Shown here: positions 658-47,992 of the stretch, piece by piece
Position numbering within the stretch: position 1 is the stretch's first letter
Layout: the number at the start of each line of letters is the position of its first letter
Assembly (NCBI RefSeq): GCF_000286355.1
Contig: NZ_AJXN01000035.1
Coordinates: 1-47,992, forward strand
Reading direction: 5' to 3'
DNA from: Kocuria atrinae C3-8
GTDB taxonomy: Bacteria > Actinomycetota > Actinomycetes > Actinomycetales > Micrococcaceae
DNA: 47,992 nucleotides
Program-made: the position numbers and the translations under genes
Notes under the pieces: model-generated
Databases searched by the model: none
The model's input: only the letters and a program-made list of their open reading frames with translations
What the model was told of the DNA's origin: nothing

Positions 658-2405
658 CTAGCGCTTGAGTGAGAGGTCCTCCTCGCGGAATTCGGTGCCG
701 TAGCCCTCGGGAGCCTCACCCGATTCGGACCGCTGCTCCTCTGCTTTGCGCAGCTCCACGCGACGAATCTTGCCGGATATCGTCTTGGGCAGTTCCAAGA
801 ACTCGATGCGGCGGATGCGCTTGTACGGGGGAAGCTTGCTCAGGCAGAACTGCAGGATCTCCGTGGCCGTCTCCGTGGTGGGTTCGTACCCGGAGCTCAG
901 GGTTACGAAGGCCTTGGGGATCGCCAGTCGCAGCTCGTCCGGAGTGGGCACGATGGCCGCTTCCATGACGGCCGGGTGCTCCACCAGAACCGATTCCAGC
1001 TCGAACGGTGACACCTTGTAGTCGCTGGACTTGAACACGTCGTCCGCGCGGCCCACGTAGGTGAAGATGCCGTTCTCGTCCCGGGAGACCACGTCACCGG
1101 TGTGGTAGAGACCGTTGCGGAACACGTCGTCGGTCTTGGCCTTGTCGCCGTAGTACCCGCGCATCAGACCCACCGGGCGGGGATCCAAGCGCAGGCACAG
1201 CTCGCCCTCCTCCGCTTCCTCGTCGGTCATGGGGTCGATGAGCACCACGTCGAAGCCGGGAAGCGGTACGCCCATGGAGCCGATCACGATGCGGCGTCCG
1301 GGGGTATTGGCCACCTGCAGGGAGGATTCCGTCTGGCCGAAGCCATCGCGAATCGTGCAACCCCAGGCGCGATTGACCTGCTCGATGACCTCAGCGTTGA
1401 GGGGCTCACCGGCCGAAACGGTCTTCTTGGGTGGGGTCTGCAGCAGGCTGAGGTCCGCCTTGATGAGCATGCGCCACACAGTGGCGGTGCGCACAGACTG
1501 GTCACGCCGATCTTGTCCATCACGCCCATGAGCGCGGCGGCGTCGAACTTGCGGAAGTTGTACACGAAGATCGTGGCCTCCGCGATCCAGGGGGCAAAGA
1601 AATTCGACCACGCGTGCTTGGCCCAGCCGGGCGAGGCCACGTTCAAGTGGATGTCGCCGGGCTCCAGTCCGATCCAGTACATGGTGGACAGGTGACCCAC
1701 GGGGTAGGAGGTATGCGTGTGCTCCACGAGCTTGGGCTTGGACGTGGTGCCCGAGGTGAAGTAGAGCAGCAGGGTCTCTTCCGCGCCGGTGGGGGAGTCC
1801 TGGGTCAGTTCGGGTGAGGCATCGTAGGCCTCGTTGTAGTTGATGACCTTGCGGCCACCGGCATCCGGGTCCTTGATCTGATCGGCCGGGGTATAGACGC
1901 CAGGAACGTAGATCACGGTGTAGTCGCCGTCCACCGGTGCGAATTTGGGAGCGTCCTGCATACCCACGATCGCCCACTTGGCTTCGGCGCGGGTCACACG
2001 GTCTTCCAAGTCCGTGGGTCCCATTTGCGTGGTGGTGGGAACCATGACGGCCTCGAGCTTGATGCAGGCCAGCATCGACTCCCACAGCTCCACCTGATTG
2101 TTGAGCATGAGAATCACGCGGTCACCGCGCTGCACACCCTGCTCCCGCAGCCAGTTGGCCACCTTGTTGGAGTCTCGGCTGAGCTCGCCGAAGGTCCGGC
2201 GCAACTCTGAGCCGTCCTCCTCGAGAATGATTAGCGCATCCTGGTCCTTGCGCCCGGGCGATGCCGCCACCTGATCGAACCAGTCGAAGCCGAAGTTGAA
2301 GTGCTCGAAGCGAGGCCACACAAACTCCTCGCGGGCACGCTCCCAGTCCTGCTGGAGCGACACCAGGTGGTCACGGGCGGTGCGAAATTCGTTCGTCACG
2401 GTCAT
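658..2405 (-). CDS. AMP-dependent acyl-CoA synthetase (one frame break)
   Basis: An ANL-superfamily enzyme that activates a carboxylic acid with ATP to an acyl-adenylate and transfers it to CoA. The repaired length is 582 aa. The P-loop YFTSGTTSKPK lies near residues 215-225. The aromatic DGFGQTESS motif, the hinge-region GRADDVFKSSDYKVSP and the C-terminal PKTISGKIRR lysine motif are all present, so every catalytic element is intact. The general form resembles medium-chain or acetoacetate/acetate-type synthetases rather than long-chain FadD, but the substrate cannot be read. The frame breaks once near position 1484 (…SLCAPP | TVWRML…), consistent with one missing base. The ATG at 2405 opens onto a 182-bp region shared with a divergent acyl-CoA dehydrogenase, suggesting coordinated control of one catabolic route. 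Confidence 0.88.
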
Positions 2406-2521
2406 GGCTTTCGGGGCCTCCTAGATATGCGGTCGTGGTCCTGATGTGCCGTGCTCACCGGGTGGCAACAACGGCGCTGACGTGTCCGTTCCAAAAAAGT
2501 GTGACTCACGACACCACAAAT

Positions 2522-2548
2522 ATACTTGGAAGGCCTATAGTTGGAAAG
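2522..2548. promoter_or_regulatory. Phased direct repeats in the divergent promoter region
   Basis: Two near-identical 12-mers, ATACTTGGAAGG (2522-2533) and ATAGTTGGAAAG (2537-2548), sit 15 bp apart between the divergent synthetase and dehydrogenase genes. They overlap an AGGCCT palindrome. Position and repetition suggest a regulator site controlling one or both genes. The cognate regulator is not identified; the nearby MarR protein is one candidate. Confidence 0.4.
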
Positions 2549-2587
2549 ACCACAATCGGAATACCGAGAAATTTGAGGACCACGATC

Positions 2588-3785
2588 ATGACCAGCGCGA
2601 CCCTCTCCCACTCCGGTGATGCACCCCAAAGCCTTCTGCCGGACGTAGACCTCCTGCATGTGGAGTCACTGCTCGATCCCGCCGAACGCGAGCGCTTGGC
2701 CGTGATCAAGGAGCACCTGCAGGCCCACGTGCGTAAGCAGTCCATCGACCGTGGAACCGTGAGCACCTGCCGACCGAGCTGCTGCCCGCGCTCGCGGAAC
2801 TGGGACTCGGCAAACTGTTCCTGGACGGTTCGTCGCGGTTGTTCCAGGGCATCGTGCACTCTCAGATCGCCCGTGCGGACGTCTCACTGTCCGCCCTGAT
2901 TGGCATCCACAACGAGCTGATCGTCGGCACGATTGCGGAATTGGGCTCGGAGGAACAGAAGGCGCAGTGGTTGCCCGGACTGTCCGAACTCACGCAGTTG
3001 GGTGCTTTCTGCCTGACCGAACCCACCCACGGTTCGGACATCGCTGGTGGCCTGGCCACCACCGCCACATTGGACGGTGACGAATGGGTCATCCAGGGAG
3101 AGAAGCGCTGGATCGGGGCCGGTACCGTGGCCGCGGTCGCCCTCGTGTGGGCTCGTGACACCGCGGACGGTCTGATCAAGTGCTTTGCCGTGGACACCAC
3201 CCATCCCGGTTACACGGCCACGAAGATTGCCAACAAGATGGGTCTGCGCATCATGCAGAATGCGGACATCGTGCTCAACGAGATCCGCGTGCCCCGCACC
3301 GCGCTGCTGCCCGGCGCCATCAGTTTCGACGCCGCCAACGAACTGCTCAAGGACTCCCGCGCGTGGGTCGGCTGGCAGGCCGTGGGCGCTCAGCAGGCCA
3401 TTCTCGACATCCTGCGCGACTACTCGCTGGAGCGCGTGCAGTTCGGCAAGCCGCTGGCGCGTTTCCAGGTGATTCAGCAGACCATGGCGGAGATTGCCGG
3501 CAACCTGGCCGCAAGCTCCGCGATGATGGTCCAGATGGCACGTCTGCAGGAGACCGGCGAGCTCGAAATGATGCACGCGGCCATCGCCAAGTCCACGGCC
3601 ACGCGCCTGGGTCGCCAATCGGCGTCCTTGGCGCGCGATGCGCTGGGTGGCAACGGCCTGCTGAGCGACTACGAGATTTCCAAGGTGCTGGCGACCTCGA
3701 GGCCATTTACACCTACGAGGGCAGCTATCACATCAACGCGCTCATCGTGTCCCGCGCGTTGACCGGCGTCTCCGCGTTCGTCTAA
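2588..3785 (+). CDS. Acyl-CoA dehydrogenase, glutaryl-CoA dehydrogenase-like (two frame breaks)
   Basis: An FAD flavoenzyme that introduces an alpha-beta double bond into an acyl-CoA. The repaired length is 399 aa. The middle domain carries FCLTEPTHGSDIAGG, the usual flavin/substrate segment. The C-terminal domain has QFGKPLARFQVIQ, ARDALGGNGLLSDYEISK and the catalytic-glutamate motif IYTYEGSYHIN. The last motif and the general spacing are closest to glutaryl-CoA dehydrogenase-type members, some of which also decarboxylate; the substrate remains inferred. ATG 2588 is chosen because GAGGA lies 8 bp upstream. The frame breaks near 2753 and near 3695, each a net loss of one base. The gene is divergent from an acyl-CoA synthetase and probably works in the same pathway. 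Confidence 0.86.
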
Positions 3786-3820
3786 ACGCCACAAGGGTAA
3801 CCGCAACGAAGACTCGTCTG

Positions 3821-3853
3821 ACTCGCCCCGAACCGGCGAGTTAGGCGAGTTTT
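3821..3853 (+). terminator. Rho-independent terminator after acyl-CoA dehydrogenase
   Basis: ACTCGCC (3821-3827) can pair with GGCGAGT at 3835-3841 or with a second copy at 3844-3850, which is followed by TTT. It lies 36 bp after the stop codon. The remaining 175 bp before glyS hold no recognisable feature other than one copy of GCGGCGTCGTC (3932-3942). Confidence 0.65.
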
Positions 3854-4028
3854 CTGCGTAATGGCTACCCTGGAACCGAGACGTCATCTCGGGCGTCTCG
3901 TTCGTGGTGCCGAGCGCACGAAAGCCGCCCCGCGGCGTCGTCGTCAATAGCGCCCTCAAGAACCACCCAACTGATTCCACGCGCGCGGCCGCAGCCAGCG
4001 GTCGGGCGAGAAACGGATGTGAGCACGC

Positions 4029-5410
4029 ATGGCTGCCAAAACCACCCTGGACAATGTCATCTCCCTGGCCAAGCGCCGAGGTTTTGTCTTTCAGGCGGGT
4101 GAAATTTACGGCGGTTCGCGCTCCGCGTGGGACTACGGACCCTTGGGCGCGGAACTGAAGGAAAACATCAAGCGTGAGTGGTGGCAGACCTTCGTGCGCG
4201 GCCGCGCGGACATGGTGGGCTTGGACTCGTCCATCATCCTGCCCTCGGCCGTGTGGGAAGCCTCCGGTCACGTGGAGACCTTCACCGACCCGCTGGTCGA
4301 ATCGCTGCACACCCACAAGCGCTACCGTGCCGATCACCTGCTCGAGGCCTACGAGGCCAAGCACGGTCACCCGCCCGTCAACGGCTTGGCGGACGTGAAG
4401 GATCCGGAGACCGGCCAGGACGGCAAGTGGACCGAGCCGCAGCAATTCTCCGGCCTCATGAAGACCTTCCTGGGCCCCGTGGACAACGAAGAGGGCAAGC
4501 ACTACCTGCGCCCCGAGACCGCCCAGGGCATCTTCGTGAACTTCCTCAACGTGCTCAACGCATCGCGCAAGAAGCCGCCGTTCGGCATCGGCCAGATCGG
4601 CAAGGCGTTCCGCAACGAGATCACCCCGGGTAACTTCATCTTCCGCACGCGCGAGTTCGAGCAGATGGAGATCGAGTACTTCATCCACCCGGACGACGCC
4701 AGAAGTACTTCGACGAGTGGGTCGAAGCGTGCTGGGACTGGTTCGTGGACCTGGGCGTGAACCCGGACAACATGCGCCGCTTCGACGTGCCCGCCGATGA
4801 GCGCGCGCACTACTCTGACGGCACCATCGACATCGAGTACCGCTTCGGTTTCCAGGGCTCCGAGTGGGGCGAGCTCATGGGCGTTGCCAACCGCACGGAC
4901 TTCGACCTGTCCAACCACACCGAGCACTCCGGCGACAAGATGCAGTACTTCGATCAGGCCTCCGGCGATCGCTACACCCCGTACGTGATCGAGCCGTCCT
5001 TCGGCCTGACCCGTTCCATGATGGCCTTCCTGGTGGACGCCTACGTCGAGGACGAGGCGCCCAACACCAAGGGCGGCGTGGACAAGCGCACCGTGCTCAA
5101 GCTCGATCCGCGCCTGGCCCCGGTCAAGGCCGCCGTGCTGCCGCTGTCCAAGAAGGACGACCTCAAGCCGGTCGCCCAGAACCTGGATGCCGAGCTGCGC
5201 CGCCGCTGGAACATCGACTACGACGACGCCGGCGCCATCGGCCGTCGTTACCGCCGCCAGGACGAGATCGGCACGCCGTTCTGCGTCACCGTGGACTTCG
5301 ACACCCTCGAGGACCAGGCCGTGACCATCCGTTCTCGCGACGAAATGACGCAGGAGCGCGTTGGCCTGGACCGCGTGAGCCAGTACCTCGCCGAGCGTCT
5401 CGAGAAGTAA
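4029..5410 (+). CDS. glyS: Glycyl-tRNA synthetase, alpha2 type (one frame break)
   Basis: Class II aminoacyl-tRNA synthetase charging tRNA-Gly in the cytoplasm. This is the single-chain homodimeric type found in actinobacteria, with a repaired length of about 460 aa, normal for the family. Visible signatures include the N-terminal [29 protein letters not shown], motif 2 [25 protein letters not shown], the glycine-site segment [16 protein letters not shown], and motif 3 [14 protein letters not shown]. The anticodon-binding domain follows. The frame breaks near 4701 (…HPDDA | KYFDEWVE…), best explained by a lost G in GCCGAGAAG. Because the enzyme is essential, this is almost certainly a sequence error. 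A GNAT gene starts 7 bp after the stop, probably in the same transcript. Confidence 0.95.
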
Positions 5411-5417
5411 GGACCGC

Positions 5418-6376
5418 ATGAGCATCGAGTACCGTCCGTGGCGCGAAGACGACGACCTCCGCTTGCTGGAGGTCTGGCCGGACGCGCCGTCGGCTCCCGC
5501 CCAAGCCTTCCGAGCCCGTTTGGGTGCCGACGACGACGCCGCTTTCTCCCGCACGCTCGTGGCCACCGATGACGGTGTGCCCGTGGCGGCGGGAGTGGTG
5601 TACGAATCCCCGTGGCACCCGCAGCGACTGTGGGCCTACGTGGAGGTTGCCCGGATCGTCAACGCGAAGGAATCGGCCGAGAGCTCGTGACCCGGTTGCG
5701 CGCCGAAGCCGAGCAGGCGCCGTCGGGCGTCAGCGCGCTGCGCACCCGCGTGACTCCGGAGTCGGTCGGGCAGCAGTTTGCTCAGGCCGAGGGGCTACGT
5801 CCAGCTATGCGTTCGCGCGTCGTCCGTGTGAACGCTGGAGCGCTGCCGATGCCAACGCTGGGGCAGAACGCGGACGGTACTCCCGCTCAGACCGTTGAGG
5901 ATCTCGCGACCGGTTCCGTGGAACTTACGCGCGCCGTGTGGGAGTTCTACCGTGCGGTGCACGAGTGGGATCCCGTGGGCGAGATCGGGATCGGGGCGGT
6001 CAATCAGCAGTTGTTGTCGGACAAGGCCGGTGCCTTCGGTGCCGTGGTGCTGCGCGACGGGACTGCCGCTTCCGGTGGCAAGGCTCCCATTTCGGCCTTT
6101 GCCGTGAGCTACCGCCCGTTCGATCCGCACAACCCGAATCAGGAACCCGCCGAATTCGAGGCCGCTGACGTGCTTCTGGGCTACGTACCCGGTGCAGAAG
6201 GCAGCGAAGCGGAAACCGGTGAGGCCGTAGAGAAGCTGCTGGCCCTGCTCGTCAACGACTATCCGGTAGAGCTCGAAGTGGACGACTCCATGACCCCGCT
6301 GGTGGCGGTGGTGGACAACCTGCTCGAGGCCGGCGTGGCGCACGTGGTCACGGAGACGGTGACGCTGGTCGACTAA
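5418..6376 (+). CDS. GNAT-family N-acetyltransferase (one frame break)
   Basis: A predicted acetyl-CoA-dependent acyltransferase; the acceptor is unknown. The repaired protein is 319 aa, long enough for two GNAT-like halves. The first half holds the acetyl-CoA pyrophosphate-binding signature RQREGIGRELV near residue 82; the second half lacks an obvious copy of that motif and may be a degenerate or structural domain. The frame breaks near 5650 (…AYVEVA | PDRQREGIG…), consistent with CCCC read as CCC. The ATG lies 7 bp after the glyS stop with AAGGA overlapping that stop, so translation is probably coupled to glyS. Confidence 0.72.
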
Positions 6377-6395
6377 ACCCGGCTACAGCGATTTG

Positions 6396-6456
6396 AAAGC
6401 AGCTGGCTAGGACCAATCCTTGGAACTGAACAAGGTGTCCGCGGCCAGCTGCTTTT
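6396..6456 (+). terminator. Long-loop hairpin terminator after the glyS-GNAT unit
   Basis: AAAGCAGCTGGC (6396-6407) is a perfect complement of GCCAGCTGCTTT (6444-6455), and the 3' arm runs into TTTTCTTT. The loop is 36 nt, longer than usual, but position and T-run fit a transcript end. Confidence 0.6.
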
Positions 6457-6572
6457 CTTTCAGGGAAGTTGTCCGCGCCGCTCATATTTAGGAGTGCAGT
6501 GCCGTTCTGCCGGCCGAGTTTAGCCACCGGGTGACCGTCAGTGGTATGACGTTCTATGGAGAAAGGACGGCC

Positions 6573-7970
6573 ATGTCATTACAAACGGCGCACGCGGAGA
6601 GCAAACCGCCCATGAACAGGCGGCTCAAGCTGATTGCCACGGTGGCCACGTTCGGTGGTTTGCTGTTCGGCTACGACACCGGAGTGATCAACGGTGCACT
6701 GCCGTCCATGGTGGACGACCTTCAGCTCACACCGTTCCTGGAGGGTCTGGTCGCGTCGATCCTGCCGTTCGGTGCGGCGTGGGGCGCGGCCTTCGGTGGC
6801 AAGCTGGCCGATCATTTCGGGCGTCGCCGGGTCCTGCTGATTCTGGCCGTCGTCTTCGTCATTGCGACCATCGGCTGTGGAACGGCCCCGACCGTCACGA
6901 TCCTCGTGGCGTTCCGCTGCATCCTCGGCCTGGCTGTGGGCGCGGCCTCCGTAATCGTCCCGGTGTTCCTCGCAGAACTGGCGCCAGCGCACCTGCGGGG
7001 CAGAGTGGTGGCACAAAACGAGCTGATGATCGTGGGCGGTCAGGCGCTCGCATTCGTCTTCAACGCCGGACTCGCTACCGCGTTCGGCCACATCCCGCAC
7101 GTGTGGCGCTACATGTTGGTCCTCGCCACCATCCCCGCGCTGATCCTGTGGGTCGGCATGATTGTGGTCCCCGAGTCACCGCGCTGGCTGGCCCGCAACG
7201 GATCCGTGGACCGCATGTTCGAGGTGCTCCGCCGCATCCGAGAAGACGCCTATGACCCGGGGGAGGGTGAGACCGTCCTCCAGCTGGCCGACGAGGACAA
7301 GAACCGCCCCACCGCCCGAGTCATGGACTTGGTGCGGGTCCCATGGATCCGCAGGATCTTCATCCTGGGCGCCTCGATGGCCATCATCAACCAGATCTCC
7401 GGCATCAACGCCATCCAGTACTACGGCGTGACCGTGCTCCAGGACGTCGGTTTCGGCGGCAACGGCGCCTTCTACGCGAACATCATCCCGGGCGTGGTGG
7501 GTGTCCTGGCCGTGGGACTGGCCATGTACCTGCTCAAGTACGTGGGCCGGCGCAAACTGTTGTTGATCGGCCTGGTGGGCACGGCGACGTCGTTGACCGC
7601 CTTTGCGCTGTCCTACCTGCTGATCCCGGAAACCAACGAGGCGCGGGCGTGGGTGATCCTCGCGTGCATCGTGGTGTTCGTGGGCTTCATGCAGTGCTGC
7701 ATCGGCACGGTGACGTGGCTGTACATGTCCGAGATCTTCCCGCTGAACGTGCGCGGGGTTGGCATGGGCGTGTGCGCGTGGATCCTGTGGATGATGACGT
7801 TCGTGGTGGGCCTGACGTTCCCGATTCTCACCGATTCGCTGGGCGTTGGGTACACGATTCTGATCTTCGTGGTGCTGCAGGTCATCGCGTTGGTGTGGGT
7901 GTACCGGGTGGCCCCGGAGACCAAAGACAAGTCGCTGGAGGAGCTGGAGCACTACTTCCGCGCCGGGTAG
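6573..7970 (+). CDS. MFS sugar porter
   Basis: An intact 465-aa major facilitator of the sugar porter family, with 12 predicted membrane segments. Family signatures are clear: LLFGYDTGVINGALP in the first helix, KLADHFGRRR after helix 2, PVFLAELAPAHLRGR, VVPESPRWL at the end of the N-half, QISGINAIQYY in helix 7, and a terminal PETKDKSLEELE. It is probably a proton symporter for a hexose or inositol; the ligand is not determinable. ATG 6573 is chosen over upstream GTG codons because GGAGAAAGGA stands 3-12 bp before it. A galactokinase gene begins 65 bp downstream, so galactose or an arabinose-like sugar is a reasonable guess for the substrate. Confidence 0.93.
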   Translation: MSLQTAHAESKPPMNRRLKLIATVATFGGLLFGYDTGVINGALPSMVDDLQLTPFLEGLVASILPFGAAWGAAFGGKLADHFGRRRVLLILAVVFVIATIGCGTAPTVTILVAFRCILGLAVGAASVIVPVFLAELAPAHLRGRVVAQNELMIVGGQALAFVFNAGLATAFGHIPHVWRYMLVLATIPALILWVGMIVVPESPRWLARNGSVDRMFEVLRRIREDAYDPGEGETVLQLADEDKNRPTARVMDLVRVPWIRRIFILGASMAIINQISGINAIQYYGVTVLQDVGFGGNGAFYANIIPGVVGVLAVGLAMYLLKYVGRRKLLLIGLVGTATSLTAFALSYLLIPETNEARAWVILACIVVFVGFMQCCIGTVTWLYMSEIFPLNVRGVGMGVCAWILWMMTFVVGLTFPILTDSLGVGYTILIFVVLQVIALVWVYRVAPETKDKSLEELEHYFRAG

Positions 7971-8035: not shown

Positions 8036-9432
8036 GTGTCCTGTGAGCTCAGCGAAACCGCCACACCGGAAGATTTCGCGCGTCCGCGGTGGGTCGGTCA
8101 GCCGGATGTCCTCGAGCGGGCACAGCGGTTGAGCCAGAAGTTCGAAGAGGTCTACGGCCGCGCACCGGTGGGTGTGTGGGCCGCGCCCGGTCGCGCCAAT
8201 CTCATGGGCGAGTACGTGGATTTCTCCGGAGGCATGTGCCTTCCGTTCGCGCACCAGTACGTCACGTTGACGGCGGCCGCGCCTCGTGAGGACGGCGTGC
8301 TCAACGCCCAGTCGATGCAGGACGCGGACGAGTCCGTGGCCGATGACCGCCCCCGGTCCACCCGCATCAACGACATTGAACCCGGAGCCATCTCCGCTGG
8401 TTCGGGTACGTGGCCGGCGTGGCCTGGGGCATGAATCGCGTGGCGTGCGGCGATTCCGCGCATCCGGTAGCGGTGCCTGAGCTCGGTCTTCCTTCGTCCT
8501 TCGGTGCGGACCTCATGGTGGATTCCACGGTGCCGATCGGGGCCGGGCTTGCCTCATCCGCCGCCCTCGAATGCTCCGTCGCGCTCTCGCTGTTCTCCTT
8601 GAACACCGGCAACGATCATCCGGATGACGCCCTGCGCCGTGCCCTCGCACGCGCCTGCATGGACGCGGAGAACTACATCGTGGGGGCCAACACGGGCGGC
8701 CTGGACCAGACGGCATCCCTGCGCTCGCACGCGGGGGAGATCCTGGCCCTGGACTGCCGCGATTTCGACGTCGTCCGATTGCCCGCCGATCCCGCGCTCG
8801 CCGGTCTCACGTGGCTGGCCGTCGATACGCGCGCCCCGCACAAGCTGGCAGACGGTCAGTACAGTTCCCGCCGAACCGAATGTGAAGCCGCCGCGGCAGT
8901 TCTGGGCGTGCCTACGTTGCGCGATGCGCTTCCAGAACAGCCCACCCCCGACGACGCCGCTGCCGTCCTCGAGCGCTTTGACCACCTTCTCGATGCGGGT
9001 GCGGAGCTCACCGAGGACCGTGAGAAGACCCGGTTGAGGCTGCGACATTCGATGACCGAGATGGTGCGCTCGGTGCAGATTGCCGATGAGCTGCACTCGG
9101 ATTCACCGGACTGGACTCTCGTGGGTCGTTTGCTCGTGGAGGGACACGAATCCATGCGCGACGACTGCCAGGTCACCGTTCCAGAACTCGATGCCGCCGT
9201 GGACGGGTGCCTGTCCGCGGGAGCGTTGGGCGCCAAGGTGGTCGGCGGGGGATTCGGCGGATCGGTGATCGCCCTGGTGCCGCTCGAGTCCGTGGACCGG
9301 CTGGCCGCCACCGTGCAGTTGTGCTTTGCCCAGAACGGGTTCCGCGAGCCGCTCTTTTTGACTTTGCGACCGTCCGAAGCGGGCCGCAGGATCCTAGGGA
9401 CTCCGCTTCTCCCGGCACGACCTGAATGCTGA
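8036..9432 (+). CDS. galK: Galactokinase, GHMP family (one frame break)
   Basis: ATP-dependent sugar-1-kinase of the Leloir pathway (galactose to galactose-1-phosphate). The repaired length is 465 aa, slightly long for the family. The N-terminal galactokinase signature is present as GRANLMGEYVDFSGG. The usual His of the GEHxDY core is Tyr here, while the Glu and Asp that contact the sugar are kept. The GHMP ATP loop PIGAGLASSAALE and the C-terminal GGGFGGSVIAL motif are present. GTG 8036 is chosen because GAGGAA lies 7 bp upstream. The frame breaks near 8397. The gene directly follows a sugar porter, which fits uptake followed by phosphorylation. Substrate preference for galactose is family-based inference. 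Confidence 0.85.
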
Positions 9433-12123: not shown

Positions 12124-12127
12124 CCGA

Positions 12128-15037: not shown

Positions 15038-15053
15038 TAGGATGAGAGGCGTG
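15038..15053 (+). promoter_or_regulatory. Extended -10 box for a leaderless dnaG transcript
   Basis: TAGGAT (15038-15043) lies exactly 7 bp before the GTG at 15051, the standard geometry of leaderless actinobacterial transcripts. No usable ribosome-binding site precedes that GTG. The ATG at 15042 overlaps the hexamer and is the alternative start. Confidence 0.5.
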
Positions 15054-17177: not shown

Positions 17178-17193
17178 CTGCAGACGATAGAAG

Positions 17194-17214
17194 CCCCGGT
17201 TCGCCGGGGTTTTT
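17194..17214 (+). terminator. Terminator after tRNA-Asn
   Basis: CCCCGG, a TTCG tetraloop and CCGGGG, followed by five T. The next 239 bp up to 17453 hold no convincing gene; an ATTTAAAT palindrome lies at 17402-17409. Confidence 0.92.
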
Positions 17215-17453
17215 GTCGTATCTGGATCTTTTTTGCCCGGCTCCATCTGAAGGGCCAACATCTCAGGTGCCGGTAGAGCCCTTTGTGACCTTTCAGGGGT
17301 TGCTATGGCCCCTTCGAGACTCCGATGGGGTTCCAACGGACCACCATCTGTTTCGCATGGTTAGGTCGGGCCCTTACCGGGAAGATCTGCCTCTGCATGT
17401 CATTTAAATGCCCGGACCTCTCACTGCTATTTCCGCGTTGGTAGCTTTTTGTC

Positions 17454-18536: not shown

Positions 18537-18620
18537 CGGAACAAGACCAGTACGCCTGGGACTCATTGCCGACCAGGGGTTCGAGGTCTAAAACAGCACA
18601 GACCACGGCGCCCGAGGCGC

Positions 18621-36377: not shown

Positions 36378-38020
36378 ATGATCAATATCACTTCCGCGGC
36401 ATTTCCCGCGATCCATGCCGCCACCGAGGCAGACACTGAAACCGTTGGTACTCCTTGGATCAACATCAGCGTGTTCCTCGCCTTCGTCGTTGTCACTCTG
36501 GTCGTGGTGATCCGCGCGTCCAAGTCCACCTCAACCGCTGCTGATTACTACGCGGGCGGACGGTCGTTCTCCGGTACCCAGAATGGCCTGGCTATCGCGG
36601 GTGACTACCTTTCTGCGGCGTCCTTCCTCGGCATTGTCGGAGCCATCGCACTTCAGGGTTACGACGGCTTCCTCTACTCCATCGGCTTCTTCGTCGCGTG
36701 GCTCGTTGCCTTGCTGCTCATCGCCGAGCCGCTGCGTAACACCGGCAAGTTCACGATGGCCGATGTGTTGTCCTTCCGACTCCGTCAGCGCCCGTGCGCG
36801 TTGCGGCATCCATTTCGACTTTGGCCGTGACCTTCTTCTACCTCTTGGCACAGATGGCCGGCGCGGGTGCGCTGGTCTCCCTGCTGCTGGGCATCAGTTC
36901 CAAGACCGGCCAGTCCCTGGTCATCGTGATCGTGGGCATCATCATGATCGTCTACGTACTCGTGGGCGGCATGAAGGGCACCACCTGGGTGCAGATCATC
37001 AAGGCCTGCCTGCTGGTCACCGGTGTGGCGGTCATGACCGTGTGGATCCTGGCCCTGTTCGGATTCAACTTCTCAGCCATCCTCGGCGCGGCTGTGGAAA
37101 CCAACAACAACCCCGCGATGCTCGACCCGGGGTTGAAGTACGGGCTGAGCGAGATCACCAAGATCGACTTCATCTCGCTGGGTCTGGCGCTGGTGCTCGG
37201 TGCTGCAGGTCTGCCGCACGTGCTCATGCGCTTCTACACGGTTCCTACTGCCAAGGAAGCACGCAAGTCCGTGGTGTGGGCCATTACTTTGATCGGCCTG
37301 TTCTACCTGTTCACCCTGGTGCTGGGCTTCGGCGCCGCTGCACTGATCGGATCTGATCGGATCATGAACGCCCCCGGCGGCGTGAACTCGGCAGCACCGC
37401 TGCTCGCTTACGAGCTCGGTGGCTCCATCCTGATGGGTCTGATTGCAGCAGTGGCGTTCGCCACCATTCTCGCGGTGGTCGCGGGTCTCGCCATCACGGC
37501 GTCTGCTTCTTTCGCTCACGACATCTACACGTCCGTGATTAAGAACGGCAACTCCGACCCCAAGCAGGAGCTTCGCGTGGCCAAGACCACCGTGGTCGTC
37601 ATCGGCCTGGTGTCGATCGCCGGCGGTATCGGTGCCCAGGGGCAGAACATCGCGTTCTTGGTGGCGCTGGCATTCGCGGTTGCTGCATCCGCGAACCTGC
37701 CCACCATCCTGTACTCCCTGTACTGGAAGCGCTTCACCACTCGTGGTGCCGTGCTGTCCATGTATGGCGGTCTGATCAGCTCCGTGGTTCTGATCATCTT
37801 CTCCCCGGTGATGTCCGGTGCGGAGACGTCCATGATCCCCGGCGCGGACTTCGCGATCTACCCGCTGTCCAACCCGGGCATCATCTCCATCCCGCTGTCC
37901 TTCCTGCTCGGCTTCGTCGGATCTATTACCGAGCGTCGACTGGAAGATCCTAAGAAGCAGGCCGAGATGGAAGTTCGCTCGCTCACGGGCGTCGGCGCGG
38001 AGAAGGCGGTCAATCACTGA
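36378..38020 (+). CDS. actP: Acetate/monocarboxylate sodium symporter (one frame break)
   Basis: A 547-aa (repaired) solute:sodium symporter with about 13 helices. ADYYAGGRSFSGTQNGLAIAGDYLSAASFLGIVG is the SSS-family entry with the sodium-site helix 1, and GLPHVLMRFYTVPTAKEARKS and FATILAVVAGLAITASASFAHDIYT are typical of ActP/MctC. The protein takes up acetate, propionate or pyruvate. The frame breaks near 36793 (…FRLRQRP | VRVAASIS…), consistent with CCCGGTG losing a G. It forms an operon with DUF485 under a CRP/GlxR-like site. Uptake of acetate matches the acyl-CoA metabolism genes at the left end, but no direct link is shown. Confidence 0.93.
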
Positions 38021-38137
38021 TTCAGTGTTCTGACAGTTTCTGCTGTAACCTGGTAGTAAGCTGGCAGTCAGTACGCTGACCAAGGCATACGAACGCGACC
38101 GCGTCGTGTAACAGCAAGCAGTACAACTGGAGGAATC

Positions 38138-38407
38138 ATGGGCATCATTAGCTGGATCGTCCTGGGCCTGATCGCTGGCGCACTCGCCAAGCTCATCATG
38201 CCCGGCCGTCAGGGTGGCGGCATCATCGTCACCATCATCCTGGGCATCATCGGTGCAATCTTGGGCGGCTTCTTGGGCAGCCTGATCGGTATCGGATCCC
38301 TGGATTCCGTGTTCGACATCGGAACCATCATCACCGCTGTTGTGGGCGCACTCATCGTGCTCTTCATCTACGGTGCAGTGACCGGCCGCAAGGGCGCTCG
38401 TCGCTGA
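38138..38407 (+). CDS. GlsB/YeaQ/YmgE-family small membrane protein
   Basis: An intact 89-residue transglycosylase-associated-type protein with three glycine-rich helices: MGIISWIVLGLIAGALAKLI, GGGIIVTIILGIIGAILGGF and IITAVVGALIVLFIYG. The PGRQGGG motif after helix 1 is diagnostic. The family is linked to stress response and envelope but has no firm biochemical function. GGAGG lies 7 bp before the ATG and a terminator follows, so it is probably monocistronic. Confidence 0.92.
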   Translation: MGIISWIVLGLIAGALAKLIMPGRQGGGIIVTIILGIIGAILGGFLGSLIGIGSLDSVFDIGTIITAVVGALIVLFIYGAVTGRKGARR

Positions 38408-38424
38408 TCCACGGCTTCACTGAG

Positions 38425-38458
38425 CAAGGGCGTCACCTCCGGGTGGCGCCCTTGTTTT
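38425..38458 (+). terminator. Terminator after the GlsB-like gene
   Basis: CAAGGGCGTCACC pairs with GGTGGCGCCCTTG (one G-T pair) and is followed by TTTTG. Confidence 0.9.
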
Positions 38459-38497
38459 GTGTCCCGACCACTTTCGATCCACGAGATACTGGTGACC

Positions 38498-39801
38498 ATG
38501 TCTGACGCACCCTTGTCCATGACCCCCGAATTCGACCGCGCCACTCGCGAGCATCCCCGGCGCGTGGTCATTCTCGGGTCCACGGGTTCCATCGGTACGC
38601 AAGCACTGGACGTGGTCGCGTCCGCGCGGCAGTTGAAGCGACCGGGGGAGGACGACGCCGCCGCAGCGCACCCGCCGCTGTCCGTCACGGCCGTGGCCGC
38701 GGGAACATCTAATCTGCCCTGTTGGCCGAGCAGGCCGTGCGCGAGCGTGTGGCCGCGGTCGGTACCAGCGGCACGGCCGAGCACGCGAGGCAGCTGAGAG
38801 AGCTCATCTCGCAGCGGGCTGCGGGGGAGGGGCTCACGGGGTTCAACCCGGACATCTTCCACGGTTCGGAGGCTTCAACACGCGTGGCCGAATGGTCCGA
38901 TTGCGATGTTGTTCTCAATGGCATCACCGGGTCGATCGGACTGGCTCCTACGCTCGCCGCACTGAACGCCGGCAAGCCTGTGGCGCTGGCCAATAAGGAA
39001 TCCCTGATCGCCGGCGGACCGCTGGTCAAGCAGGCCGCTGCGGCAACCGGACTGGAAACTCCGTTGATCCCGGTGGACTCTGAGCACTCGGCCCTGGCCC
39101 AGGCACTGCGGGGAGGACGTTCGAGTGAGGTGGACCGTCTGATCCTCACAGCATCCGGCGGTCCGTTCCGCGGGATGAAGCGTGCGGATCTGACGGCTGT
39201 GACCCCTCAGCAGGCACTCAAACACCCCACGTGGGACATGGGTGTCATGGTCACGACCAACTCCGCGACCATGGTCAACAAGGCCCTCGAGGTGCTGGAA
39301 GCATCCCTGCTCTTCGATATCGACCTTGATCGGATCGACGTGACCGTTCACCCGCAGTCCGTGGTGCATTCCATGGTGCAGTTCGTGGACGGTTCCACGC
39401 TGGCCCAAGCTTCACCGCCCGACATGCGCTTGCCCATCGCCCTGGGGATGGGGTGGCCGCACAGAATTACCGGCGCGGCGGCGTCGTGCGATTGGTCACA
39501 GGCGGCCCAGTGGACCTTCGAGCCGCTCGACTCCGAGGCGTTCCCCGCGATCGAACTCATCAAGCACGCCGGAAACCTAGGCGGGACGTGGCCCGCGGTG
39601 TTCAATGCGGCCAACGAACAGGCCGTGTACGCCTTCCACGGCTGTGAGGTGAAGTTCACGGACATCGTGGACATCGTGGCAGCCGTGGTGGACGAACACG
39701 AGGGCGAGAAGACCCCGCGGCTCGAGGATGTTCTCGGGGCCGAAGAATGGGCCAGGGACCGCGCGGATCGGTTGATTGCTCAGCGTTTCAGCGCACGCTG
39801 A
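38498..39801 (+). CDS. dxr: 1-deoxy-D-xylulose-5-phosphate reductoisomerase (one frame break)
   Basis: NADPH- and metal-dependent enzyme of the MEP isoprenoid pathway. The repaired length is 434 aa. Signatures are [19 protein letters not shown] (NADPH loop), [25 protein letters not shown] (metal site), [11 protein letters not shown] (flexible loop), [22 protein letters not shown] and [15 protein letters not shown] 38498 is the likely start; a 20-residue hydrophilic N-terminus precedes the loop. The frame breaks near 38717, between the first and second parts of the NADPH domain. In many actinobacteria dxr is followed by a site-2 protease gene and ispG; here the methionine operon stands in that place. 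Confidence 0.94.
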
Positions 39802-40049: not shown

Positions 40050-40937
40050 GTGCGATCTCACCGTTTGATCCCCCTTGCGCTGGCCACCACCATCGGCCTC
40101 ACCCTGACCGCGTGCGGCGGCGGAGACTCTGAATCCTCCGATCCCGCTGCGGACGGCACCATCACGATTGGCATTGTTGGCTCGGAGCCGGCCCATGACG
40201 CGCTCAAGGAAGTCGCTGCCGAGAACGACATCACTGTGGAGTACGTTGATTTCAGCGACTACAACCAGCCGAATCCCGCCACCAAGAGCGGCGATGTGGA
40301 CATGAACTGGTTCCAGCACACCGCTTACCTTGCGGACTACAACAACAACTCCGGTGACACCATCACCCCGGTCGGTTCCACCTCGATCTACCCGCTCGGC
40401 ATGTACTCCAACAAGTACGATTCCGTGGGCCAGATCAAGGACGGCGACGAGATCGCCATTCCCAATGACTCCATTAATCTGGGCCGCGCCCTGAACCTGC
40501 TCAAGCAGGAGGGCCTGGTGGAATTCACCAAGGACACCATCGCCCCGACCGAGAGCGACGTGGACACCGAAAAGTCCAAGGTCAAGATCCGCCCGGTCTC
40601 AGCCGAGCAGACCGTCCTGTCGATGGATTCCGTGGCCGCCTCCGTGATCAACAACGACTTCCTGGGTCGCGCGAACATCGATCCGAAGTCGGCTCTCGCG
40701 TCCGATGATCCCAACGAGGACAGCGCTAAGGTCTTCGATAACCTCTTCGCCGCCACCGAGGCCAACGCGGACAACGAGACCCTCAAGAAGGTCGCCAGCT
40801 TCTACTACGATCCCAAGGTCTTGGCAGCCGAGGACGAAGAATCCAAGGGGACTGCTGTTCCGACCGAGATCGACCAGCAGGAACTCAAGGACCTGCTGAA
40901 GCGGTACCAGGAAGACTTGAAGGAACAGACCCAGTGA
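40050..40937 (+). CDS. metQ: Methionine ABC transporter substrate-binding lipoprotein
   Basis: An intact 295-aa NlpA-family protein that captures methionine outside the membrane. The signal peptide RLIPLALATTIGLTLTACG has a lipobox with the modified Cys near residue 24. The mature protein shows TITIGIVGSEPAHDALKEVA, VEYVDFSDYNQPNPATKSGDVDMNWFQHTAYL and IYPLGMYSNKY, typical of MetQ. GTG 40050 follows GGAAAGG by about 7 bp. Its stop overlaps the metN start by four bases. Expression is expected to be riboswitch-controlled. Confidence 0.95.
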   Translation: MRSHRLIPLALATTIGLTLTACGGGDSESSDPAADGTITIGIVGSEPAHDALKEVAAENDITVEYVDFSDYNQPNPATKSGDVDMNWFQHTAYLADYNNNSGDTITPVGSTSIYPLGMYSNKYDSVGQIKDGDEIAIPNDSINLGRALNLLKQEGLVEFTKDTIAPTESDVDTEKSKVKIRPVSAEQTVLSMDSVAASVINNDFLGRANIDPKSALASDDPNEDSAKVFDNLFAATEANADNETLKKVASFYYDPKVLAAEDEESKGTAVPTEIDQQELKDLLKRYQEDLKEQTQ

Positions 40938-41986
40938 CCGAAGTATCCAGTGAGCGCACCCTGGTGCGCTTCCGGGATGTCAGCAAGGTCTACACCGGCG
41001 GATCCAAGCGGGCACCCCGCGTGGTCAACGCCGTGGACAATGTCACCCTGGACATCACCAAGGGTGAGATCTTTGCCGTGATCGGGTACTCCGGTGCCGG
41101 CAAGTCCACGCTCGTGCGTCTGATCAACGGATTGGAGCCCATCAGCTCCGGTTCGTTGGAAGTTGCGGGCAACCGGGTGGACGGCAAGTCCGAAACCCAG
41201 TTGGCTCCGATCCGTCGCAAGATCGGCATGATCTTCCAACAGTTCAACCTGTTCAACTCACGCACTGTGGCGGGCAACATTGAATACCCGCTCAAGCGCG
41301 CAGGGTGGAGCCCCGAGGAACGCAAACGTCGGGTGACCGAGCTGCTGGACTTCGTGGGACTGACCGAACGTGCCAAGAACTATCCCGAGCAGCTGTCCGG
41401 TGGCCAGAAGCAGCGCGTGGGTATCGCTCGCGCCCTGGCCTCCAACCCGGAACTGTTGCTCGCGGACGAATCGACCTCGGCGCTAGACCCGGAAACCACC
41501 CAGGAAGTGCTCGGACTGCTCAAGCGAGTCAACCGAGAGCTGGGGATCACCATTGTGCTGATCACCCACGAGATGGACGTGGTGCGTTCCATCGCAGACC
41601 GTGTGGCCGTCATGGACACCGGTCGTGTGGTCGAGGTGGGCACCACCTCCGATGTGTTCGCCTACCCGCAGGCCGAAACCACCCGGAGGTTCGTCTCCTC
41701 CGTGATGCGTACCGTGCCTCGCGAGGAAGAAATCGCCAAGGTGCGTGAGGAGCACCCGGGTCGTCTGATCCTGGTGGATGTCACGGATCAGAACCGCATC
41801 GGTTCGGTGCTCTCGGAGTGCGCTCGTGACGGAGTGACCTTCGAGATCGCGTTCGGTGGCATTTCCATGCTGCAGTCGCGGTCGTTCGGCACGTTGACCC
41901 TGTCGTTGAACGGTCCGGACACCGCGGTGGAGAACACCATTGTCAGACTGCGTGAAATCACCAAAGTAGAGGAGGTGGCCCGCTAA
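40934..41986 (+). CDS. metN: Methionine ABC transporter ATPase
   Basis: An intact 350-aa ATP-binding subunit. Walker A GYSGAGKSTLVRL, Q-loop QQFNLFNSRTV, ABC signature LSGGQKQRVGIARAL, Walker B LLLADESTSALDP and the switch His in VLITHEMDV are all present. The C-terminal 90 residues form the NIL domain that senses cytoplasmic methionine and inhibits transport (transinhibition). GTG 40934 overlaps metQ; the stop overlaps the metI ATG by one base, so the three proteins are tightly co-translated. Confidence 0.97.
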   Translation: MTEVSSERTLVRFRDVSKVYTGGSKRAPRVVNAVDNVTLDITKGEIFAVIGYSGAGKSTLVRLINGLEPISSGSLEVAGNRVDGKSETQLAPIRRKIGMIFQQFNLFNSRTVAGNIEYPLKRAGWSPEERKRRVTELLDFVGLTERAKNYPEQLSGGQKQRVGIARALASNPELLLADESTSALDPETTQEVLGLLKRVNRELGITIVLITHEMDVVRSIADRVAVMDTGRVVEVGTTSDVFAYPQAETTRRFVSSVMRTVPREEEIAKVREEHPGRLILVDVTDQNRIGSVLSECARDGVTFEIAFGGISMLQSRSFGTLTLSLNGPDTAVENTIVRLREITKVEEVAR

Positions 41987-42642
41987 TGGATTGGTCAGTA
42001 CTAGGACCCCAGCTGCTCTCCGCCACCGGCGAGACCCTCTACATGGTGGCCGTCACGCTGCTCCTGGCCGGCTTCATCGGCCTGGTGGTCGGCGTGGGAC
42101 TCTATGTCACGCGGCGGGGCAACATCCTGGAGAACACCGCGGTCTTCACCGCGCTGAACCTCCTGGTGAACTTCATCCGCCCCATTCCGTTCATCATCCT
42201 GCTGGCCGCACTGGGCCAAGCCACGGAGGCCGTTGTGGGAACCCGACTGGGTCCCAACGCCGCGATCTTCGCCATGACCATTGGTGCAACGTTCGCGGTG
42301 GCGCGCATCGTGGAGCAGAACTTGATGAGCGTGGATCCCGGCGTGGTTGAAGCTGCACGCTCCATGGGTGTCTCCCGGTTCAAGATCATCACCACGGTGA
42401 TCCTGCCCGAGGCTCTCGGCCCGCTGGTGCTCGGCTACACCTTCTTGGTCATCGGCATCACGGACATGTCCGCCATGGCCGGTGCCATTGGCGCCGGTGG
42501 TTTGGGCGACTTCGCGTTGCGGCTGGGTTACCAGCGCTTCAATGACGAGGTCACCTGGGCCGCTGTGATTGTGATCATCATCTTGGTGCAGCTGGTCCAG
42601 TTCTTCGGAAACTGGTTGGCGCGCAAGATCATGCGCCGCTAG
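41986..42642 (+). CDS. metI: Methionine ABC transporter permease
   Basis: An intact 218-residue five-helix permease. The EAA loop is seen as [27 protein letters not shown], which docks on Met[20 protein letters not shown] and [29 protein letters not shown] are typical of MetI. It is the last gene of the riboswitch-controlled operon and is followed by a hairpin. Confidence 0.97.
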
Positions 42643-42821: not shown

Positions 42822-43987
42822 GTGAGTTCGGTCAGTCTCGGTATGCCCGCTGCACCCCAGCCGGTCCTTTCACCTCGACGGAAGACCCGTCAGATCCAGG
42901 TGGGGTCCGTGGGTGTCGGATCGGATTTCCCGGTCAGCGTGCAGTCGATGACCACCACGCCCACCACGAACATCAACGCCACGCTGCAGCAGATCGCAGA
43001 GCTCAACGCAGCCGGCTGTGACATCGTGCGCGTGGCCTGCCCGTCCCAGGACGACGCTGATGCGCTGCCCATCATCGCCAAGAAGTCACCCATCCCGGTG
43101 ATTGCGGACATCCACTTCCAGCCCAAGTACGTGTACGCGGCCATTGATGCCGGTTGCGCTGCCGTTCGTGTGAACCCCGGCAATATCCGTAAGTTCGACG
43201 ATCAGATCGAGGGCATTTCCCGCGCGGCGGAGGCCGCCGGTGTCTCTATCCGCATCGGTGTGAACGCAGGCTCCCTGGACAAGCGACTGCTCGAGAAGTA
43301 TGGCAAGGCAACTCCCGAGGCACTCATGGAGTCCGCGGTATGGGAGGCCTCTCTGTTCGAGGAACACAACTTCCACGACTTCAAGATCTCCGTCAAGCAC
43401 AACGACCCCGTGACCATGGTGCGCGCCTACCAGTTGCTCGCCGAACGCGGTGACTGGCCGTTGCACCTGGGCGTGACCGAAGCCGGGCCCGCGCTGCAGG
43501 GCACCGTGAAGTCCGCGACCGCCTTCGGAATTCTGCTGGGACAGGGCATCGGGGACACCATTCGCGTCTCGCTGTCCGCGCCCCCGGTCGAAGAGGTCAA
43601 GGTGGGTAACCAGATCCTGCAGTCGCTGGGCCTGCGCCCGCGCAAGCTGGAGATCGTCTCCTGCCCGTCCTGTGGCCGCGCCAGGTGGACGTCTACAAGC
43701 TCGCCGACGATGTCACCAAGGGTCTCGAGCACCTGACCGTGCCGTTGCGCGTGGCCGTGATGGGCTGTGTCGTCAACGGGCCTGGCGAGGCTCGCGAAGC
43801 CGATCTGGGTGTTGCTTCCGGTAATGGGAAGGGACAGATTTTCGTCAAGGGTGAGGTCATCAAGACCGTCCCCGAGGACCAGATCGTGGAGACTCTGCTC
43901 GAGCAGGCGAATCTGATGGCCGAGGACATGGAGCTCGACGAGAACGGGCAGCCCGTTGAGGGCGCCCCGGTCGTGACGGCCGGATGA
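42822..43987 (+). CDS. ispG: (E)-4-hydroxy-3-methylbut-2-enyl-diphosphate synthase (one frame break)
   Basis: Iron-sulfur enzyme of the MEP pathway converting MEcPP to HMBPP. The repaired length is 388 aa. The TIM-barrel part has [22 protein letters not shown] and [21 protein letters not shown]. The [4Fe-4S] domain has [15 protein letters not shown] (two Cys) and [18 protein letters not shown] (third Cys and catalytic Glu). The frame breaks near 43682, inside the first cluster motif, consistent with GCCCAGG losing a C. GTG 42822 is chosen because GGAGG lies 6 bp upstream. Its stop overlaps the start of the next gene by four bases. Confidence 0.95.
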
Positions 43988-44846
43988 TCCGTTACCGGGT
44001 GACGCGTCTGCTGGTTCCCGGGGCAGTGCCCCAGTTCGAACTGGACCAGCTGCTGGCGCGTCACGCGGTGTCCTCGGTATTCGTGAGCGCGCACGTGGAC
44101 ACGGTGCGCGCCGCCCGACGCCGCCGCCCTCCGCCCGTGGTGGGCATCATGAACCCCGCCCAGGAACTCGTGGGCGCGTGCTGGGTGGGCACCAATGTGG
44201 TTCCCATCGAGCTGGACGAGGTTGGGCAAGACCTGGTCGCGGATTATCTGGCTCGGGGTGGCGCGCATTACGCGTCCATCTTCGGTCCCGCGGAGCCCGT
44301 CATGGGGCTCTGGAGCCGTCTCAAGGGTTCATGGCCGGTTCCGTTTGACGTGCGCCTGATCAGCCGCTGTTGGTCATGGACAAGGACCCGGACCCCGAGC
44401 AATTCACGGCGCCGTCTCACTACGTGCGATGGGCCGAGATCTCCGAATTTTCTCGTGTGCTTCCGGCCGCCGCGGCCATGTTCGAAGAGGAAGTCGGCTA
44501 CTCACCGTTCGTGGACGGCGCGCAGAGCTACCGCAAACGTGTGGAGCAGTTGGTCCGCGAGAAAAGAACCGCTGTGCTGACCGACGACACGACCGGCCAA
44601 GTCCTCTTTAAGGCGGACATCGGTTCCATCAGCTCGGGGGTGTGCCAGATCCAGGGCGTGTGGGTGGACCCCGCCCATCGGGGGCGCGGTCTCGCGGCGC
44701 CGTGCATGGCCGCTGTGGTCGCCATGGCTAGGGAATACGTTCCCGTGGTCAGTCTCTACGTGAATTCATACAACGCGCCGGCCCTGGCCACGTATCGACG
44801 GGTTGGCTTCCAACAATCGGGAACATTTGCCACCGTATTGCTGTAG
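43984..44846 (+). CDS. DUF4081-GNAT acetyltransferase (one frame break)
   Basis: A 287-aa (repaired) two-domain protein. The first 110 residues resemble the DUF4081 domain that precedes a GNAT domain in actinobacterial proteins encoded beside ispG. The second half has the acetyl-CoA signature [21 protein letters not shown] and the late [20 protein letters not shown], both standard GNAT elements. The acceptor is unknown. The frame breaks near 44361 (…DVRLI | QPLLVMDKD…), consistent with ATCCAG losing a C. Its ATG overlaps the ispG stop, so it is co-translated with that gene, as in related genomes. Confidence 0.87.
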
Positions 44847-45850: not shown

Positions 45851-46603
45851 ATGGGCTCCAAGACCACTACCCCCGCATCGTTCTCTAGCGTTCACACTCC
45901 GCGACGCCGTGGCGTGCGTTCGGCCGCCGCGGTTGCCATCGCGGCGCTCGCATTAACGGCATGTTCCTCGGGCGGAGGTGGCGGAGACGAACCGGAGCCC
46001 GAGGCCAGCTACTCGCAGGACCAGTTGGTCAACGCGCTCAACAGCGTGGAAGTGGATAGCCAGACCTTGTCCGCCGAGGCGATGAACCAGGAGAGCGCCG
46101 GCACTCAGATGGACGACATCGAGCAGGCTCTGGAAGAGGCCACCATCGAGCCGGCGCAGTGCAAGGATCTGGTCAAGGCCGCTGGATTCATCCTCCGGAC
46201 ACGTGGAGAACATCGTGGTGGCCACCCCGTCCGACGGGAAATTCGCAGTGAGTGCCATGCCCCTGGCTCTGCGGACGAGGCCAAGGAACACGCGCAGAAC
46301 GCCAATCAGCAGAACGAAGACTGCCAGGACTTCTCCATGGAGCTCATGGGAAGCAAGATCGAGGCCACCATTGAGCCCCGTGACATCGAGATCGAGAACG
46401 GCTCCGAGGCCGCCATCATGGACATGACCATGGACATGGGCGGGCAGTCCAACGAGATGACCCAGGCTTCCGCGGTGGTGGCCAACACCTTTGTCGTGGT
46501 GAGCGGTCAGGGCACGTCCGGCGAGTCGGAAAGCGCTTCTGCAGAGTCCCCGGACATCGAGGCGATCCTGCAGGAATCCGTCAACAAGATTTCTGAACAG
46601 TAA
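45851..46603 (+). CDS. Predicted lipoprotein, second of a related pair (frame breaks)
   Basis: About 251 aa after repair. The signal segment SAAAVAIAALALTACSSGGGG has a lipobox. The mature part keeps a Cys pair like its neighbour's: EPAQCKDLVKAA and NEDCQDFSMELMGS, with a SADEAKEHAQNANQQ helix between. The middle looks wrong as read. A net loss of two bases (or gain of one) near 46183 followed by one lost base near 46265 restores GHVENIVVATPSDGKFAVSA between the Cys residues, which is clearly coding-like. The C-terminus is a Ser/Glu-rich stretch plus a short helix. Its function is unknown; it is probably an envelope protein duplicated with its neighbour. Confidence 0.65.
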   Translation: MGSKTTTPASFSSVHTPRRRGVRSAAAVAIAALALTACSSGGGGGDEPEPEASYSQDQLVNALNSVEVDSQTLSAEAMNQESAGTQMDDIEQALEEATIEPAQCKDLVKAAGFILRTRGEHRGGHPVRREIRSECHAPGSADEAKEHAQNANQQNEDCQDFSMELMGSKIEATIEPRDIEIENGSEAAIMDMTMDMGGQSNEMTQASAVVANTFVVVSGQGTSGESESASAESPDIEAILQESVNKISEQ

Positions 46604-46623
46604 GCATCCATATTGGTCTGAAA

Positions 46624-46670
46624 GGCTGGTATCTGGGGGATAGAATCCCACCAGATACCAGCCATTCTTT
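46624..46670 (+). terminator. Terminator after the lipoprotein pair
   Basis: GGCTGGTATCTGG (46624-46636) pairs perfectly with CCAGATACCAGCC (46651-46663); an inner GGGAT/ATCCC extends the stem. ATTCTTTATA follows. It isolates proS transcriptionally. Confidence 0.9.
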
Positions 46671-46702
46671 ATAGGCCCGTTTACGGGCGGTTAGGACTCT
46701 TC

Positions 46703-47992
46703 GTGCCGCTTCGCCTGAGTTCCCTGTTCCTCCGCACTTTGCGCGAGGACCCCGTTGATGCAGACGTGGCCAGCCACCGTCTGCTCGTGCGCGCCGGTTA
46801 TATTCGTCGCGCCGCGCCGGGTATTTACACGTGGTTGCCGCTCGGGCTGAATGTGCTGCGCAAGGTCGAGTCCGTGTCCGCGAGGAGATGGACGCGATCG
46901 GTGCGCAGGAGGTTCACTTTCCGGCACTGCTGCCGCGTGAGCCCTACGAAACCACCAATCGCTGGACGGAGTACGGCGAGAACCTGTTCCGGCTTCAGGA
47001 TCGTAAGGGCGCAGATTACCTGCTGGCCCCCACACACGAGGAAATGTTCACCCTGGTGGTGAAGGACATGTATTCGTCCTACAAGGATCTGCCGGCCATG
47101 TTGTACCAGATCCAGACCAAATACCGGGATGAAGCTCGTCCCCGCGCAGGCCTACTGCGCGGTCGCGAGTTCATCATGAAAGACTCCTACTCCTTCGACG
47201 TGGACGACGCCGGGCTGGACGAGTCCTATGACAAGCATCGCGCCGCGTACGTGCGGATCTTCGAACGCCTGGGTCTTCCCGTGGTGGCCGTCTCCGCGCA
47301 GTCGGGTGCCATGGGCGGGTCGCAGTCCGAAGAGTTCATGCACCCCACGCCCATCGGCGAGGACACCTTTGTCCGTTCGGCTGGCGGCTACGCCGCCAAC
47401 GTCGAGGCCGTCACCACCGTGCCGCCGGAAGCTATCGCGTACGACGACGCCCCGGCCGCCCAGGTGAACAGGACCCCTGACAGCCCCACCATCGAGACGC
47501 TCGTGGACCGTTCCAACGAACTCCACCCGCGGGAGTCGGGGGAGTGGACCGCAGCAGACACGCTCAAGAACGTGGTGCTGTCCGTGACCCTGCCCGATGG
47601 CGAGAAGCAACTGGTGGCCGTGGGAATCCCCGGTGACCGTGAGATCGACATCAAGCGCGTGGAAGCCGGTATCGGCCAGGCCCTGGGCGTGGGCGGCGAG
47701 CTGGACGTGGAACCGGCCAGCGACGAGCAGCTGCGGGCGCGTCCGGAAATCGTGAAGGGTTACCTGGGCCCCGGCATGACCCGGGAAGATGCCCTGCTGG
47801 GCGCGAAATCCCAGTCCGAGATCCCATACTTCGTGGATCCTCGGGTGGTTCCCGGAACCAGCTGGATCACCGGTGCAACGTGAGCGAGATGCACGTGTAC
47901 GGTCTGGTGGCCGAGCGGGACTTCACCTGGGACGGCACCCTGGAGGCATGCCGGGTGCGCGCCGGCGACCAGGCGCCGGACGGTTCCGGCGA
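46703..47992 (+). CDS. proS: Prolyl-tRNA synthetase, N-terminal part (two frame breaks, runs off the window)
   Basis: Class II synthetase charging tRNA-Pro; about 430 of the expected 580-600 residues are present. The start [44 protein letters not shown] split into [20 protein letters not shown] is diagnostic. Motif 2 [25 protein letters not shown] and the segment [13 protein letters not shown] follow. The insertion (editing) domain, typical of the bacterial form, begins near residue 230. Breaks lie near 46876 (KVESV | VREEMDAIG, one G lost) and near 47877 (WITGA | [15 protein letters not shown] losing a C). After the second break the frame stays open to the window edge. GTG 46703 follows AGGA by 7 bp. 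Confidence 0.94.

Follow-up and report, generated by a model that had tools for sequence, protein, structure and literature searches.

The 47,992-nucleotide (nt) contig NZ_AJXN01000035.1 of Kocuria atrinae C3-8 (assembly GCF_000286355.1), referred to here as the window, raises a simple question: have many of its genes truly lost single bases, or are these bases missing only from the database copy? It corresponds to contig C35 in a draft assembly, G000, of 3,197,170 bases in 221 contigs, with an estimated completeness of 79.03 and a contamination of 4.52. A placement in Kocuria agrees with its MetN protein, which is 96% identical to a match in a Kocuria MAG and 83% identical to one in Kocuria marina. 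A first-pass annotation, made from the sequence alone, had counted about 36 missing bases in 23 genes and had read them as an artefact. We compared the window with the equivalent region of G018, the nearest relative among the genomes compared (93% identity over a 3-kb test stretch), whose estimated completeness is 100. Our analysis indicates that the losses are almost certainly errors of the assembly consensus, and that the organism itself would still carry the bases. By this account the consensus would drop a single base at short runs of G or C, either in base calling or in consensus building, so that the reading frames would probably be scrambled only in the database copy, which would also lower the apparent completeness of the genome.

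The reference set comprised 46 genes called in 56 kb of G018, of which 38 could be matched to the window over 40,077 aligned nt; the best alignment per gene was kept and frame segments shorter than 30 columns were discarded. The window showed 31 persistent frame changes relative to G018, spread over 22 of the 38 genes and accounting for 34 missing bases. Two further one-base gaps, at about 23126 and 34379, lie close to the ends of genes, outside the 30-column filter, and bring the total to the approximately 36 bases counted before; the 22 genes compare with the 23 proposed. Twenty-eight of the changes were of −1, as had been expected for all but two, while three were of −2, one of which consists of two single-base gaps separated by 27 nt, and none had the positive sign that had been allowed for. 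As written in G018, the base lost is a G or a C in all but five cases; in those five G018 has T, and two or more of the other relatives carry G or C. That gene lengths return to multiples of three once the lost bases are put back is read from the alignments alone, not from a corrected sequence. As had also been stated, dnaG (15051-17024, forward strand) and metQNI (40065-42642, forward strand), both named after the first-pass annotation, were unbroken (genes 14, 34, 35 and 36 of the comparison). To judge how often such changes arise among relatives we scored G011, G005, G022 and G023, each on the members of the gene set matched there (41, 35, 29 and 27 genes), and found 1, 1, 1 and 0 frame changes in 40,905, 31,271, 27,662 and 24,566 nt, that is, three in 124,404 nt versus 31 in the 40,077 nt of the window.

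The losses extend beyond the genes of the window. We aligned stretches of contigs C1-C30 to part of G018 and obtained usable alignments from ten of them, which together with the window cover 296,421 nt. Unfiltered, these contain 320 one-base losses versus 99 gains; when only clean events were counted, those with at least 21 of 24 flanking bases agreeing, there were 202 losses versus 18 gains. An artefact would have been contradicted by insertions at a similar frequency, and the opposite was found. Two-base events were more even (44 losses versus 32 gains). Clean losses were present on ten of the eleven contigs, the exception being C13, which supplied just 2,244 nt. G or C accounted for 163 of the 202 clean losses (p = 3e-7 versus a GC content of 64%). 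For the remaining 39, G018 has A or T, a point on which the wider genome differs from the loss of C or G that had been described. Inside the window, one- and two-base clean losses occurred both in coding sequence (27 in 39,937 columns, 0.68 per kb) and outside it (9 in 5,817 columns, 1.55 per kb); clean gains numbered zero and two, respectively.

Losses were also evident where no reading frame is involved and where a cell could hardly tolerate them, and it is for the latter reason that we read them as consensus errors. The single 23S ribosomal RNA (rRNA) gene found in the draft is short of four bases present in G018, in G011 and in each of the three G005 copies. Essential genes were broken as had been claimed: glyS, encoding glycine-tRNA ligase (4029-5410, forward strand, one break near 4700), occurs in one place only, and a search of G000 found no second copy. 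The open frame of rpoB is split in the draft into 1,058 and 258 codons (four relatives, 1,204 codons; G022, 1,444), and three genes of class I tRNA ligases are likewise split, on C130 (342 + 722 codons), C33 (329 + 563) and C218 (366 + 546), the matching frames in relatives spanning 843 to 1,187 codons. One could imagine that programmed frameshifting or RNA editing lets the cell overcome the breaks, and the conservation of the codons downstream of the breaks would suit this. However, the same losses affect non-coding DNA and rRNA, the same genes are unbroken in relatives, and the breaks have only a graded sequence context in common, leaving read-through with a vanishingly small chance of being correct. 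In the 23S rRNA gene, on contig C46, we also noted a three-base extra relative to G018, G011 and the three G005 copies, which is probably natural variation.

To get clues whether the broken genes are decaying, we examined substitutions on both sides of the breaks. With codons taken in the phase of G018, the ratio of nonsynonymous to synonymous substitution rates (dN/dS) was 0.062 for the in-phase parts of the window and 0.050 for the out-of-phase parts, and no nonsense substitution was found among the 13,253 codons compared. Both sides of the breaks are thus under ordinary purifying selection, without a sign of decay, and neither the relaxed selection nor the nonsense changes that mark genuine pseudogenes are seen. 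Real genome decay, in which many genes were disabled by one-base deletions, for example in a mutator lineage, would agree with the fact that the losses truly stand in the assembly, and the context bias described below could in principle reflect an error-prone polymerase. Yet 23S rRNA and essential single genes are affected, the out-of-phase codons are as constrained as given above, and the branch substitutions are close (1,379 on the window branch versus 1,199 on that of G018, with G011 as outgroup over 36,417 columns), genes 31 and 33 accounting for 162 of the 180 excess changes. We therefore regard decay as scarcely credible. The artefact proposed by the first-pass annotation was borne out by the one-sidedness of the losses, their presence in coding and non-coding sequence and on ten of the eleven contigs, the 23S rRNA and essential genes affected, and the purifying selection.

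What remains is how the consensus came to lose these bases, and here their sequence context is informative. Using background run counts scaled from 40 stretches of G018 rather than counted within the aligned columns, we obtained 0.20, 1.95, 8.27, 7.11 and 9.74 losses per 1,000 G/C runs of lengths one to five, versus 0.36, 0.76 and 0.55 per 1,000 A/T runs of lengths one to three, with one event each at A/T lengths four and five. Of the 163 G/C losses, 145 fell in runs of at least two, including 64 in runs of exactly two, and the other 18 affected single bases. Such a profile speaks against flow-chemistry error of the 454 or Ion Torrent type, in which longer runs of any of the four bases bring more error; since A/T runs are barely touched, we set this source aside. 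Beyond run length, the flanking bases mattered. AGGGC or AGGGT (AGGGY) had lost a base in 38 of about 1,300 copies, versus 26 of about 6,440 other GGG runs, and on contigs other than the window the counts were 29 of about 1,094 versus 19 of about 5,424. The latter enrichment (p = 1e-11) does not amount to a clean hold-out test, because AGGGY was chosen after all the data had been seen. Runs preceding A were seldom lost (3 of 64 losses at GGG and 4 of 64 at GG). A motif of the form [A or T]GGGC, first drawn from the window, was only partly upheld: AGGGC remained high on other contigs (22 of about 721), and TGGGC did not, with 5 of about 200 lost in the window but 2 of about 1,067 elsewhere. A text search within one article returned CAGGG zero times and GGGC six times, and we claim no novelty for the AGGGY signature.

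The first-pass annotation had suggested that the runs might hold modified bases and that their flanks might share a methylation context. According to this explanation a modification within or close to AGGGY would make the caller drop a letter, and the losses would map the methylation of the strain. The AGGGY enrichment, overall and on the contigs other than the window, favours it, as does a precedent in PMC6591954, where unlearned Dcm methylation underlay about 70% of consensus errors in the nanopore callers then tested. On the other hand, in a table of contiguous contexts of up to three bases before and two after the run, the highest-loss contexts lost only about 10% (CAGGGCT, 5 of about 50; TCAGGGC, 6 of about 62), AGGGY accounts for 38 of the 163 G/C losses, and many losses lie at runs of two or at single bases. 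No strict motif emerged with the high fraction of affected sites that strict-motif methylation would entail, and the modified bases were not borne out; the losses instead follow a graded context, AGGG before C or T, as from a base caller or a consensus step, and not an all-or-none motif. This gradation argues against a strict motif, methylated at every copy, being chiefly responsible, while still allowing partial modification. Altogether we consider a modification artefact unlikely, and it is more doubtful still that the loss sites trace an uncharted base modification of partial penetrance, centred on CAGGGY, at which long-read callers skip a base. The parallel with the Dcm-site errors is one of systematic, context-dependent consensus error; the motif is strict there, whereas the context is graded in the Kocuria assembly.

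Among platforms, under-polished long reads would fit best. The most likely source of consensus errors of this kind would be long single-molecule reads of modest depth, without short-read polishing. One-base deletions are concentrated at homopolymers, as expected of long-read error. Published accounts of long-read assemblies agree with what is seen here in the one-sidedness of the deletions, their bias towards homopolymers and certain contexts, a rate near 0.7 per kb and the low completeness, and we favour this origin on these grounds. In these accounts, a long-read-only assembly carried 127.49 indels and 13.53 mismatches per 100 kbp (PMC12051259), and PacBio-derived assemblies of a high-GC bacterium had G/C homopolymers one base short, with 1,410 to 7,639 differences per genome of about 2.57 Mb for an R9.4.1 rapid library (PMC11649196). 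The G/C runs listed there are 4-10 bases long, however, while most losses here are in runs of two or three. The nanopore-only metagenome assemblies of PMC8103633 resemble the present case in their indels, surplus pseudogenes and low completeness in medium-quality genomes, and correcting frameshifts lifted the completeness of two of them from about 85% to 93.86% and 95.49%; those assemblies, unlike the uncorrected Kocuria one, were mended by frameshift-aware correction. PMC11017572 reports that many reported pseudogenes are assembly errors; alike are the many frameshifted genes that are sound in relatives, and different is that it is a general, largely short-read study, whereas here losses dominate with a G/C-run and AGGGY bias.

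Several observations weigh against consensus error as we propose it. The clean-loss rate in coding sequence is below that outside it (Fisher p = 0.04), which pure error would not predict and which qualifies the statement that coding, non-coding and rRNA sequences are all affected; true intergenic indels may account for the lower coding rate. Unique indel columns in 23S rRNA also occur in relatives (five in G011, four in G005 and none in G018), so this test supports the reading without proving it. Some long genes of the draft are whole, such as gyrB (718 aa) and a class I ligase frame of 554 aa on C1. Finally, a search for platform traces with one Oxford Nanopore Technologies (ONT) and one SMRTbell adapter sequence gave no match.

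Consensus errors are nothing new as biology, and the finding is useful as a warning about this assembly. Automatic annotation had been predicted to call a quarter of the chromosome pseudogenes; in the window the broken share is above a quarter, with 22 of the 38 genes so labelled, and studies of gene content, pseudogenes or essentiality based on the assembly would be misled. A one-sided loss count against a near relative, together with 23S rRNA as a frame-free check, provides a simple flag for such genomes. No clear candidate sharing this fault emerged from a screen of gyrB in 149 genomes of the order, of which 144 exceeded the cut-off and five (G033, G038, G064, G077 and G080) fell below it; the gene is whole in the Kocuria draft itself. 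Scans for tRNA genes contributed nothing further on this matter.

The remaining broken genes of the window, on the forward strand unless stated otherwise, are of varied function. One break each was located in an AMP-binding acyl-CoA synthetase (658-2405, reverse strand, near 1484; family assigned from the intact G018 gene), a GNAT acetyltransferase (5418-6375, near 5650), a galactokinase-like gene (8036-9395, near 8397), an MFS transporter resembling aromatic acid symporters (13537-14924, near 13874), a second MFS transporter (23281-24605, reverse strand, near 23478), a DMT family transporter (27137-28092, near 27513) and a GT4-like glycosyltransferase (28082-29268, near 28793), as well as in pyrH, encoding UMP kinase (32681-33453, near 32764), an actP-like monocarboxylate/acetate symporter (36378-38020, near 36793), dxr (38492-39801, near 38719), ispG (42900-43987, near 43680) and a DUF4081/GNAT protein (43984-44846, near 44354). 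Two breaks were found in an acyl-CoA dehydrogenase (2588-3785, near 2750 and 3689), in a cdsA-like phosphatidate cytidylyltransferase (34351-35088, near 34612 and 34883, with the extra gap at about 34379 near its start) and in proS, encoding proline-tRNA ligase (46703-47992, near 46876 and 47875), which is truncated by the contig end. A −2 and a −1 event occur in a dGTP triphosphohydrolase (12070-13444, near 12446 and 12538) and in a protein without a family hit (46025-46603, near 46182 and 46267). The tRNA dihydrouridine synthase gene dusB (10936-12123) has three losses, near 11834-11862 and 12066, and an MptB-like mannosyltransferase (18623-20230, reverse strand) has four, near 18890, 19091, 19380 and 19497. 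A GT87-like membrane glycosyltransferase (20647-21845, one break near 21224) is followed by its paralogue (21906-23130, break near 22807 and the extra gap at about 23126), which has no NCBIfam hit; the two tandem genes share about 65% DNA identity, each aligned to the G018 counterpart of the other.

Divergence from G018 is patchy along the window: a gene at 26075-26941 is about 100% identical, and the stretch from the actP-like gene to dxr (36378-39801) is 84-94% identical. In the equivalent of the latter, G018 and G023 are 94-100% identical to each other, and homologous recombination on the G018 side is a likely explanation, judging from these identities. A segment of about 1.4 kb adjoining tRNA-Asn (17180-18620) is absent from the alignments of G018 and G011; five open reading frames (ORFs) in it gave no Pfam hit, and neither a match in a plasmid collection nor a second copy in the genome was found. 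Near the place in G018 that matches this segment we noted an ORF resembling a Mutator-type transposase.

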